DNA of 49,129 bases from contig JACQFP010000035.1 of NCBI GenBank assembly GCA_016200005.1, positions 1 through 49,129 of the forward strand, given 5' to 3'. The DNA is from Verrucomicrobiota bacterium. GTDB taxonomy: Bacteria > Verrucomicrobiota > Verrucomicrobiia > Limisphaerales > PALSA-1396. Shown here piece by piece: positions 11,334-47,206 of this stretch (position 1 is its first letter; each line of letters starts with the position of its first letter). The notes beneath the pieces were generated by a model. It saw only the letters and a program-made list of their open reading frames with translations. It did no database searches and was not told the DNA's origin. Both the position numbers and the translations under genes were made by a program.

Positions 11334-11415
11334 GTTGGAGTTCAAGCTTTAGCTTGCCGTTTGGATCGAGTTTCGTTGGCGGATTTCCTGAACAAGCTAA
11401 AGCTTGAACTCCAGC
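11334..11415. repeat. Dispersed palindrome, copy 1
   Basis: The left arm GTTGGAGTTCAAGCTTTAGC... (11334-11356, 23 bases) and the right arm 11393-11415 are inverted copies matching at 22 of 23 positions, with a 36-base loop. It lies in the divergent promoter region between the ArsS-like gene and the glycosyltransferase-like gene. The same arms occur at 14022-14076 and 42999-43055. Confidence 0.92.
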
Positions 11416-14021: not shown

Positions 14022-14076
14022 CGTTGGAGTTCAAGCTTCAGCTTGCTCGGGACGCACGCTGAAGCGTGAACTCCAG
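14022..14076. repeat. Dispersed palindrome, copy 2
   Basis: The left arm GTTGGAGTTCAAGCTTCAGC... (14022-14044) and the right arm 14054-14076 match at 20 of 23 positions after inversion, with a 9-base loop. It lies in the gap between ppnP and the MetE-like gene, ending 11 bases before the latter's stop codon. It could act as a transcription end or a processing signal for the minus-strand operon, though no T-run follows. Confidence 0.92.
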
Positions 14077-14087
14077 CCTGCGCGCGA

Positions 14088-39428: not shown

Positions 39429-39516
39429 CGTAGGAGACGAGGTAACGAGGCTCACTTCTAAATTCGGGACGCGGAATACGGAATCGGATGAGAGCCTCGT
39501 TACCTCGGCTGCTACG
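39429..39516. repeat. Inverted-repeat element, CGTAG...GAGGCT ends
   Basis: The left arm at 39429-39454 and the right arm 39491-39516 match at 23 of 26 positions after inversion (core CGAGGTAACGAGGCT). The internal part reads TTCGGGACGCGGAATACGGA at about 39463-39482. The arms share the GTAGC... CGA... GAGG pattern with the longer element at 46991-47206. It lies between the NagB-like gene and rnhB. Confidence 0.85.
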
Positions 39517-42612: not shown

Positions 42613-43503
42613 TCATCTGAATTGCGGATGTTGTTCCAGCCTGTTCCGCGTTGCGGGTGACAACGGGGATTGTCGATACACCGGCTGTCGCAACGGCTCC
42701 GCGCTGGTGGACTTGCAGGCGCGCTTGAGCCAACGGCAATCCAACGGCTCAGCAATCAAATCGAGCGTGTTGGCAGCAATGGTGGTTTCCTCTTTTTCGC
42801 CCGTGGCGTGGCCGACGCCGACAAAGAATCCCGCCAGCAACAGCGTCACCCGGAGCATCGTGCTGCGTGAATACGTCGGCAGCGCGCAGGGCCGCGCCGG
42901 ATCGAGCAGGCGAAAAAGGTTGGTGAACAGCGGCAGCGTCCACATCGCCGGATTCTTTGCCGGTGAATAGGCGTCGAACATGATGACGTGTGGAGCGCGT
43001 TGGAGTCCAAGCTTCAGCTTGTTCGGCTCTGACACGCTAAAGCGTGAACTCCAACTTCGGAGCAGCGTCGGGAAATGAGCCAGGTGCAATTCCCACTCCA
43101 CGGTTTGTGCGCCGTTGACAAACGACACACGCTGATGAGGAATCAAGTGCTGCGCGCAGTTATGATAGTCGTCGAAATAACCGAGTGCGTCGGTATGTGC
43201 GAGCGCAAAGCAAAGCGGCTCAATCGTCTCGTCAAAACTGACCAGCCGGATGAGCGACGGGATTTCCTTCGTGGCGCGCAACACCGTGAGCGCATTGGCA
43301 GCCGCGCCCAGTCCCACGTCCCAGATTACGAATTCACCGGTATGCCCTCGCAAGCGTTCCACGAGCCGCAGTTGTCTGACATAAAGCGCCTCGGCCTCAG
43401 CGACCGGGCCGATGACCGGATGGAACGTCTGGCGATGCGCCAACGAATGAACGCTGTGCACGCCATTGGCGAGCCTGACGATTTTGTAGCCACCTGCTTC
43501 CAC
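42613..43503 (-). CDS. mnmD: MnmD-like tRNA methyltransferase (MnmC N-domain type)
   Basis: This roughly 297-residue SAM methyltransferase matches the methyltransferase half of MnmC, which forms mnm5(s2)U at tRNA wobble 34. It has HPVIGPVAEAEALYVRQL, the SAM motif WDVGLGAAANAL, VSFDETIEPL and the signature FDAYSPAKNPAMWT, then SRSTMLRVTLLLAGFFVG. The oxidase half of MnmC is absent, as in single-domain MnmD. A 57-bp palindromic repeat (42999-43055) adds 19 in-frame codons just before the VIMFDAYSP strand. GTG 43503 is chosen; a TTG at 43569 would include codons from another repeat (WNLEVGAWSFF). Confidence 0.82.
   Translation of the reverse strand: MEAGGYKIVRLANGVHSVHSLAHRQTFHPVIGPVAEAEALYVRQLRLVERLRGHTGEFVIWDVGLGAAANALTVLRATKEIPSLIRLVSFDETIEPLCFALAHTDALGYFDDYHNCAQHLIPHQRVSFVNGAQTVEWELHLAHFPTLLRSWSSRFSVSEPNKLKLGLQRAPHVIMFDAYSPAKNPAMWTLPLFTNLFRLLDPARPCALPTYSRSTMLRVTLLLAGFFVGVGHATGEKEETTIAANTLDLIAEPLDCRWLKRACKSTSAEPLRQPVYRQSPLSPATRNRLEQHPQFR
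42999..43055. repeat. Dispersed palindrome, copy 3, inside mnmD-like gene
   Basis: Exactly 57 bp: left arm 42999-43021 (GTTGGAGTCCAAGCTTCAGC...) and right arm 43033-43055 (CACGCTAAAGCGTGAACTCC...). The arms are inverted copies with an 11-base loop. On the minus strand it encodes WSSRFSVSEPNKLKLGL in frame. Copies 1 and 2 of the same family are intergenic. Confidence 0.93.
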
Positions 43504-43527
43504 GGTGGCAGGATAACAGCGATGAAA

Positions 43528-43662
43528 AAAGCTCCAAGCACCAACCTCCAAGTTCCAGTGAAGCAGCAATTTTCACCCTCCAGTCCCATGCCGTACGACC
43601 ACTGCTTGAGATTTGGAGTTTGAAGTTTCTCTGGTGCTTGGTGCTTGGAGTTTGGAGCTTCT
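43528..43662. repeat. CTTGGAGTTTGGAGC repeats flanking a short spacer
   Basis: AGCTCCAAGCACCAACCTCC (about 43530-43549) on one side and GGTGCTTGGTGCTTGGAGTT (43633-43652) on the other are imperfect inverted copies; ATTTGGAGTTTGAAG (about 43612-43626) is a third related block. The right end overlaps the stop of the aminotransferase gene (TAG at 43661-43663, minus). This explains a false N-terminal extension WNLEVGAWSFF of the mnmD-like gene. I recall it as a common verrucomicrobial repeat, unverified here. Confidence 0.72.
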
Positions 43663-46990: not shown

Positions 46991-47206
46991 CTTGTAGCCA
47001 CCGACGTGAGGAGAACTCCACGGTTTGTTGCCGGGCTTCGTGCTCGCGTCTCTGCGGAGCGCGGAGAGCCTTGTCCGCAAGTTCGCGAAACTGTGAACGA
47101 AACACGCTGACAAGGCTGTCCACGCTCCGGCGACGTGGATTGGCTGTTGAACACTGAAGCTCGAAATCCGAAATTAAACAAAGCCTCCTTAGCTTGGGTG
47201 CTACAA
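46991..47206. repeat. Long nested palindromic element
   Basis: The outer arms CTTGTAGCCACCGACGTGAG (46991-47010) and the end at 47180-47206 (TTGTAGCACCC... inverted) pair imperfectly. An inner pair, 47054-47078 (GCGGAGCGCGGAGAGCCTTG) and 47106-47131, pairs well. A GAAATCCGAAAT block lies at about 47163-47174, similar to the repeat in mtnA. The element lies 48 bp upstream of the hpnA-like start and ends about 70 bp before the TPR gene. Confidence 0.8.

Follow-up and report, generated by a model that had tools for sequence, protein, structure and literature searches.

The window, that is, the whole stretch of 49,129 nucleotides analysed here, corresponds to contig C35 in a draft genome (G000) of 6.54 Mb and 87 contigs. 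It carries a gene for an MnmD/MnmC2-like tRNA methyltransferase with a palindromic repeat in frame inside it, and two further copies of the same repeat family. The features are as follows.

42613..43569, minus strand: MnmD/MnmC2-like tRNA methyltransferase ORF, 318 aa (PF05430)
42999..43055, minus strand: in-gene REPIN of 19 codons (57 bp) whose product is (S)WSSRFSVSEPNKLKLGLQ(R), at approximately residues 172-191 of the MnmD ORF (318 aa)
42999..43021, plus strand: arm 1 (REP), G-TTGGAGTC and the hairpin CAAGCT-TC-AGCTTG
43033..43055, minus strand: arm 2 (REP, inverted), G-TTGGAGTT and the hairpin CACGCT-TT-AGCGTG
11334..11415, no strand assigned: same-family REPIN, long class, 82 bp, coding score absent from both flanks
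14023..14077, no strand assigned: same-family REPIN, short class, 55 bp, coding score absent from both flanks

The arm pattern, with up to three mismatches allowed, gave six matches in the window and none in 100 shuffles. The three copies reported by the sequence-only reading were all recovered, two of them at the coordinates it gave and the 55-bp copy one base off (14023-14077 rather than 14022-14076). Its placement of the third copy, 57 bp long and open on the minus strand, in a coding gene was borne out. The minus strand of 42999-43055 is free of stops, each flank was scored as coding in a shared frame, and the 318-aa ORF (42613-43569) matched PF05430 (Methyltransf_30) with 47 bits against a cut-off of 22 (E 2.9e-12), the match lying downstream of the insert. 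The NCBIfam MnmC2 model scored below its cut-off on this ORF (64.3 vs 136). The MnmD proteins of relatives align on either side of the insert, which is located between FPTLL and PHVIMFDAYSP. The first ~20 residues of the ORF had no match in most relatives, and the true start probably lies further downstream. An imperfect 41-bp inverted repeat (43529-43660, AAGCTCCAAGCACC... / ...GGTGCTTGGAGTTTGGAGCTT) overlaps this unconserved start. AlphaFold modelled the protein of the window with a mean pLDDT of 88.4, low confidence being confined mainly to residues 1-20 and 178-187. The latter, with a pLDDT below 50, fall inside the element residues (172-191), and the insert is predicted to be disordered. 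The nearest fold to the model was that of MnmC2 (PDB 3vyw, rank 1).

Searching the whole genome with the arm GTTGGAGTYCAAGCTT at no more than two mismatches returned 117 forward and 116 reverse matches, compared to 11 and 6 for the reversed control (233 vs 17 in total). A strict doublet pattern, in which the inner stem letters were left free, gave 46 doublets genome-wide and none in the control. Seventy-nine stretches (617 kb) around arm matches, loci of REP-associated tyrosine transposases (RAYTs), and the window were examined; they contained 74 convergent doublets, a sample among the matches listed as opposed to the whole-genome count of 46, and 12 divergent pairs (counted by eye). Each REP unit consists of G-TTGGAGTY followed by a hairpin with a stem of 6 bp and a TY loop, and the outer ends of the doublet read G-TTGGAG...CTCCAA-C. 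The edges are sharp, with the terminal G outside TTGGAG present in 72 of the 74 doublets on either side, and no flanking base preference beyond this G was detected in the 74. In the stretches examined, stems were fully Watson-Crick in 154/180 arms (shuffled mean 62, maximum 80). The commonest stems were CAAGCT, CACGCT, CAACCT, and CAGCCT, each with its matching partner, and the 20 commonest stem types included seven with perfect pairing. Because most stems covary and pair, the arms are mostly separate hairpins; the doublet they form is itself palindromic on a larger scale, which is the plan of a REPIN. The arm is a REP hairpin in its own right, hence the element is a REPIN, a point that goes beyond the earlier reading. 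Two further points absent from that reading are the published examples of in-frame REPs and the presence of the family at this MnmD linker in other lineages. The conserved tag beside a short hairpin that marks a REP is present as GGAG at a fixed place, and the GTAG tag of the described RAYT-linked families is absent. The name REPIN is therefore given for architecture and RAYT link, without membership in the GTAG family. Doublets fall into a short class (52-64 bp) and a long class (67-91 bp), between which no difference in defects was found.

To place doublets relative to genes, 300 bp of each flank was scored independently with a codon model built from 209 long ORFs. Both flanks were coding in the same frame in 15 of the 74 doublets, on the same strand with a frameshift in 0, and on opposite strands in 1, while 30 doublets had coding sequence on one side and 28 on neither. 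The frame was thus kept in 15/15 doublets with both flanks coding on one strand; without selection, about 2/3 of same-strand cases are expected out of frame. By tracing the open frame through the element and using Pfam matches, 21/74 doublets were placed in frame within genes and 53/74 were not. Thirteen of the 21 belong to the 46 strict genome-wide doublets (compared by eye). The set consists of the 15 same-frame doublets and six with coding sequence on one side whose frame was open straight through (C9, C31, C36:106431, C54, C66:84112, and C79). Four of the 25 through-reading doublets (C6:17336, C26:138309, C30:24106, and C22:237977) were excluded because the element lay on the N-terminal side of the matched domain or separated two genes. 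The openness of all 21 is true by construction, so the fair test is the 15 same-frame cases against 0 frameshifts.

The peptide of in-gene copies is mostly VGVQASACP..KLKLELQP. In line with the near-palindromic form, 18 of the 21 in-gene elements were open in at least one frame of equal number on both strands. Short copies had no excess of open frames in genes (2.13 vs 2.17 outside genes, p 0.62), which makes openness a trait of the short family and not of in-gene copies; adaptation of the copies to coding is not supported by this comparison. The short class itself was over-represented in genes (16/21 vs 18/53, Fisher p 0.0016). A length divisible by three, which the sequence-only reading had pointed out, is a property of the 57-bp copy and not a general one. 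It was dropped as a requirement, only 7/21 in-gene elements being divisible, so that insertion must also add or remove target bases, the MutL junction being an example. In two ECF-like sigma factors that are paralogues (L002, C2:65665; L157, C6:55824), a doublet of 70 bp separates region 2 from region 4 at matching positions, which reflects either duplication after insertion or a hot spot.

Allowing at most one mismatch, the arm was present in 18/97 genomes, our own included. Forty stretches from the arm-bearing list, representing seven genomes, were scored for coding flanks. Flanks coding in the same frame were found for 5/5 doublets in G074 (one being the BadF-MurQ site, excluded in our own genome) and for 1/3 in G001, in UvrB. 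The count was 0/2 in G018, 0/1 in G003, 0/1 in G081, and 0/19 in G036, whose GC content of 48% the model trained on G000 may fit badly; seven stretches of G073 were without a convergent doublet. An open frame through site and flanks was likewise found at 0/19 sites in G036, and the 0/19 of this genome indicates that colonisation of genes is not general. The in-frame REPIN in UvrB of G001 (L397) appears by eye to be nested in remnants of a different palindrome, a situation also seen in L280 MnmD. At the junction of a BadF-type kinase and a MurQ-like gene (by eye), a 74-bp doublet occupies the same place in G000 (L020, G000:C26:138309-138382) and G074 (L390), genomes of different families. In both, a single open frame spans the kinase and the MurQ-like gene through the doublet, and the site is possibly a fusion with a REPIN linker, inherited or transferred.

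We then considered which enzyme could move the family. Four PF01797 RAYT-like genes of the genome were rejected as the cognate gene, with no family arms in the up to 1.5 kb fetched per side, and family arms at no more than five mismatches were absent from 29/30 RAYT-like loci fetched from ten relatives. The sole exception, L207 of genome G063, had GGAGTC-CCGGCT-TC-AGCCGG doublets on both sides. It was through the 206-aa protein of this locus, chosen for its arm-like flanks, that a RAYT was located in our genome, its top match there (E 1.6e-65, 48% identity):

G000:C46:117814-118404: probable cognate RAYT ORF, between doublets 117722-117797 and 118425-118495 / 118529-118599

The gene for a REP-associated tyrosine transposase that the sequence-only reading had suggested seeking is thus present and flanked by same-family repeats. 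The L207 protein found a match in 53/97 genomes. In the RAYT alignment, which includes the C46 ORF, an NHYH motif is invariant and one tyrosine nearly so; the latter is presumably the catalytic tyrosine. The model of the C46 RAYT had a pLDDT of 83.9 and its top fold match was PDB 4er8 (E 7.4e-8, TMq 0.53), a REP transposase with bound REP hairpin which we take to be E. coli TnpA-REP. Pfam at 1e-3 left the C46 ORF unmatched, and the homologue L207 reached 22.3 bits against a cut-off of 23 for Y1_Tnp.

The REPs beside homologues of this RAYT share the plan and differ in letters: GGAGTC-CCGCGT in G037; GGTGTC-CACCCT, CAGCCT, or CACGCT in G060, G071, G001, and G070; and an AGAGT form in G016. From these sequences, REP tag and RAYT seem to change together (GGAG to GGTG within one family, L210-L217). 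The G001 homologue, which matches as two overlapping pieces, may be broken. The doublets beside the C46 RAYT are all of the long class (76, 71, and 71 bp); since those in genes are mostly short, the short class may owe its spread to a different or an older RAYT. The link between RAYT and REPINs is positional, and we infer, for the short class especially, that the C46 enzyme moves the family. A second RAYT, on contig C43 (L034, L178) and one of the four PF01797 genes, is adjoined by a different GGAG palindrome, CGGAGCGCGGCTGTGT..ACACAGCCGCGCTCCGG, starting CGGAGCGCGG. An inverted repeat of the window (47055-47129, CGGAGCGCGG...CCACGCTCCG) starts like this palindrome, and the MnmD linkers of several relatives hold similar GGAGCGCCG palindromes.

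We consider the family to be a RAYT-linked REPIN whose frame-keeping copies persist in tolerant loops as near-neutral peptides, with a probability of roughly 0.83. The C46 RAYT, or an ancestor of it, would mobilise the REPINs in trans as single-stranded DNA, and these would insert with little target preference, genic and intergenic sites alike. Insertions that break a gene would be purged, while those keeping the frame in tolerant loops would stay as ~20 near-neutral residues. As the element is a near-palindrome, the open frame would usually be the same on both strands, and insertion either way round would yield an almost identical peptide. Loops with a tolerance for almost any sequence, the MnmD linker among them, would be occupied repeatedly in separate lineages. 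Position, structure, and homology point to RAYT-borne insertion with little target choice, whereas purging and tolerance are suggested by the frame test, by some relatives having empty sites, by the predicted disorder, and by the recurrence. The proposal of the sequence-only reading, a mobile, protein-tolerated repeat of this lineage, agrees with the results on relatives, in-gene copies, and transposase; the movement itself we infer.

The MnmD linker measures 27 residues in the window and 19 in a same-genus relative, the commonest length being 15, or 12 shorter than in the window. Among 80 named relatives, mostly Limisphaerales, Pedosphaera, or Verrucomicrobia subdivision 3, it spans 14-20 residues in 70 and is longer, at 25-64, in the other 10, and the same-genus linker is repeat-free. 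The earlier estimate of about 19 added residues is correct for the element, which has 19 codons, and too high for the linker, which is only 8 longer than in the same-genus relative. We looked for repeat-free homologues with the same residues at this place and for a lack of other copies in the genome, and saw neither. A tree of MnmD was built without the linker after dropping near-identical sequences and those with at least 90 gaps (145 kept, then 119). The repeat family occupies the linker in 4/119 distinct MnmD: the window (L035), G081 (L080), L273 (palsa_1443), and L280. The L080 copy is decayed, falls under the palindrome threshold, and was counted on reading. On this sequence evidence, several lineages appear to have acquired the repeat in the MnmD loop independently.

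The alternative that survives best, although we regard it as unlikely, is a single old MnmD insertion that was inherited and lost in most relatives. The window copy and that of L273 are of equal length (57 bp), share one reading frame, and have similar flanks, as such inheritance would produce, and the BadF-MurQ doublet offers a case of a shared site in G000 and G074. Against it, the four carriers fall in four separate clades, and those of the window, L273, and L080 have repeat-free sisters. L280 clusters with one repeat-free sequence and others bearing different insertions, with low support (0.58-0.77) that leaves the old insertion some room. The element is moreover read in another frame, common to L080 and L280, than in the window and L273, and the L280 copy sits inside a second, unrelated palindrome, GGAACGCCGAGCACCGTCTCGGC..GCCGAGACGGTGCTCGGCGCTCC.

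Palindromes of other kinds also occupy this linker. Scores were measured for 114 of the 119 MnmD sequences (median 5), and seven reached 10 or more, the window, L273, and L280 included; the long linkers of L263, L246, L271, and L256 scored 13-23. Those of L250, L261, and L081 are palindromic by eye yet score 8, and the ordinary linker of L063 scores 9. An AT-rich low-complexity repeat (AACTCAAAATTAAAAACT...) forms the linker in L247, L248, L258, L285, and L310. Contigs end at the MnmD linker in G076 and G028 and near it in G057 (L083, L084, L085, and L086), and from these contig ends, repeats may sit there in the three genomes too.

Returning to the frame-keeping REPINs of our own genome, the Pfam matches identified as hosts MutL, Mfd (TRCF), RecJ, exonuclease VII large subunit (XseA), MnmE, CysS, SelA, PrmC, a uracil-5-methyltransferase, the two ECF-like sigma factors, PrpD, RhaT, squalene/phytoene synthase, DUF58, a planctomycete-type cytochrome + DUF1585-1595 protein, a dipeptidase, an AMP ligase, MnmD, and aminotransferases of class I/II (BioF/KBL-like, by eye) and class III (BioA by PDB match). 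The AMP ligase (C36:106431) and MnmD are weaker placements, with the domain match downstream only, and the region-4 match was below cut-off in both sigma factors. In MutL, our genome reads ...TTRERE-VGVQPSGCFGSTDSLKAELQP-IEGTQ and the same-genus G001 (89% identity) ...TTREREGDSPEGTQ, an empty site. Among 30 MutL loci, our own included, the loop was comparably long elsewhere only in G003, with no recognisable arm. At the BioA site, 13-15 residues were missing in 8/8 relatives compared, G001 included. These additions are not clean: MutL, BioA, and MnmD are without residues beside the element that G001 has. The sites in BioF and CysS vary in length, and some relatives are similarly long without a repeat; being variable loops, they were judged weak examples. 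Neither doublet nor arm was found in the MutL loop of G003 or the CysS loops of G045 and G003, which had looked suspicious by eye. When compared to PDB chains, 13/21 residues of the MutL insert fell on gaps. The CysS insert fell on a gap over about half its length in one chain and on residues that are present in another, and the MnmE insert lay in an unaligned or gapped stretch.

These hosts bear on a second alternative, that the peptide or the mRNA hairpin has been exapted and is under selection because it serves the host protein or the expression of its gene. DNA or RNA is the substrate of many hosts (MutL, Mfd, RecJ, XseA, MnmE, CysS, and the uracil methyltransferase, with UvrB in G001), a tendency noted for other REPs too in PMC3733652, and the encoded peptide is similar across hosts. 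RhaT, PrpD, squalene/phytoene synthase, and the dipeptidase are nevertheless also hosts, and the similarity of the peptides follows from the DNA repeat itself. Considering also that the MnmD insert is predicted to be disordered and that MutL and BioA of relatives do without the insert, we give exaptation a small chance.

The terminal inverted repeats and short length of the doublets would also suit a MITE of an ordinary DDE transposon. No target-site duplication was found in the 74 doublets, as direct repeats of 2-8 nt numbered 3, 0, 1, 0, 0, 0, and 0, compared to shuffled means of 5.1, 1.06, 0.38, 0.09, 0.07, 0.02, and 0. Each arm, moreover, is its own covarying, tagged hairpin, divergent pairs occur besides convergent ones, and a RAYT is located between doublets, all of which make a MITE very improbable. 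A repeat misjoined into genes during assembly is conceivable for a draft in 87 contigs, with contigs of G076 and G028 ending at the linker, and yet hardly credible, as mis-joins would not keep the frame in 15/15 cases nor give the same kind of MnmD insertion in independent genomes.

As a tentative extension of the tolerant-loop reading, which we think rather doubtful, some short near-palindromic REPINs, stop-free in the same frame on both strands and so adding almost one tolerated peptide whichever way they insert, might be suited to genes, with a few loops of conserved proteins, the MnmD linker above all, serving as recurrent safe harbours for RAYT-borne palindromes across the order Limisphaerales. 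If so, they would provide a natural map of the sites where core proteins accept new sequence.

Several described systems invite comparison. The REPINs of Pseudomonas fluorescens are RAYT-linked doublets randomly spread in extragenic space (PMC3116915). Ours resemble them in the inverted REP doublet, the predicted hairpin, the many copies, and the RAYT link, and differ in their GGAG tag and in the in-frame position within genes of 21 of the 74 doublets examined. Intragenic REPs of the GTAG and CGTC kinds are described for many species in PMC3733652. They are most numerous in Opitutus terrae (Verrucomicrobia) and Rickettsia conorii, the GTAG kind being commonest in the former. According to the same source, REP dimers or groups in ORFs add 20-30 residues, many in DNA-repair and RNA-related genes, recB carries an insertion at nearly the same position in each of two Xanthomonas species, and REP dimers occur within other palindromes. 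Our family shares with these (PMC3733652) the in-ORF dimers, the repair and RNA genes, a shared site, and nesting in palindromes; unlike them, it is tagged GGAG rather than GTAG or CGTC, and here a single loop, that of MnmD, accommodates one family in four clades and, in additional genomes, other palindromes. The Rickettsia palindromic elements, an earlier precedent, are ~150 bp long and likewise palindromes that keep the frame, inserted into genes unrelated to one another and coding for a conserved peptide (PMC10969869). They are set apart by size, our doublets being 52-91 bp, and by the RAYT beside some of ours. The repeats described in PMC3119063 are different and transposase-free.

As to the enzyme, the C46 RAYT resembles TnpA-REP (4er8; PMC8266576) in its model fold, its HUH motif and tyrosine, and the tag and stem-loop beside the gene. 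E. coli TnpA-REP tolerates no change in GTAG, other enzymes being laxer, according to PMC8266576; unlike it, some RAYTs here have GGAG beside them and their homologues GGTG. GGAG at a word start was absent from the main texts of PMC3733652, PMC2817692, and PMC8266576, although it could hide in longer strings. In a search whose coverage excludes most subscription papers and bioRxiv, no publication joining Limisphaerales and RAYT was found. In-frame REPs are already known from Rickettsia and Opitutus (PMC3733652). What is new, as far as searched, is the combination of a family with the GGAG tag and an accompanying RAYT, the number of its copies in genes, and a loop in which it docks recurrently.

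With this family, the long-standing question of how mobile palindromes get into conserved genes and leave them intact can be put to the test. A single genome offers ~20 natural insertions that keep the frame, many of them in proteins whose families have known structures and some with empty-site relatives, together with a candidate transposase. The repeated occupation of the MnmD loop helps to tell host tolerance from target choice, and the RAYT homologues tagged GGAG and GGTG are natural pairs for a study of tag recognition. Elsewhere in the window, a palindrome at 39429-39516 with arms CGTAGGAGACGAGGTAACGAGGCTC / GAGCCTCGTTACCTCGGCTGCTACG has ends resembling those of a GTAG-tagged REP doublet.
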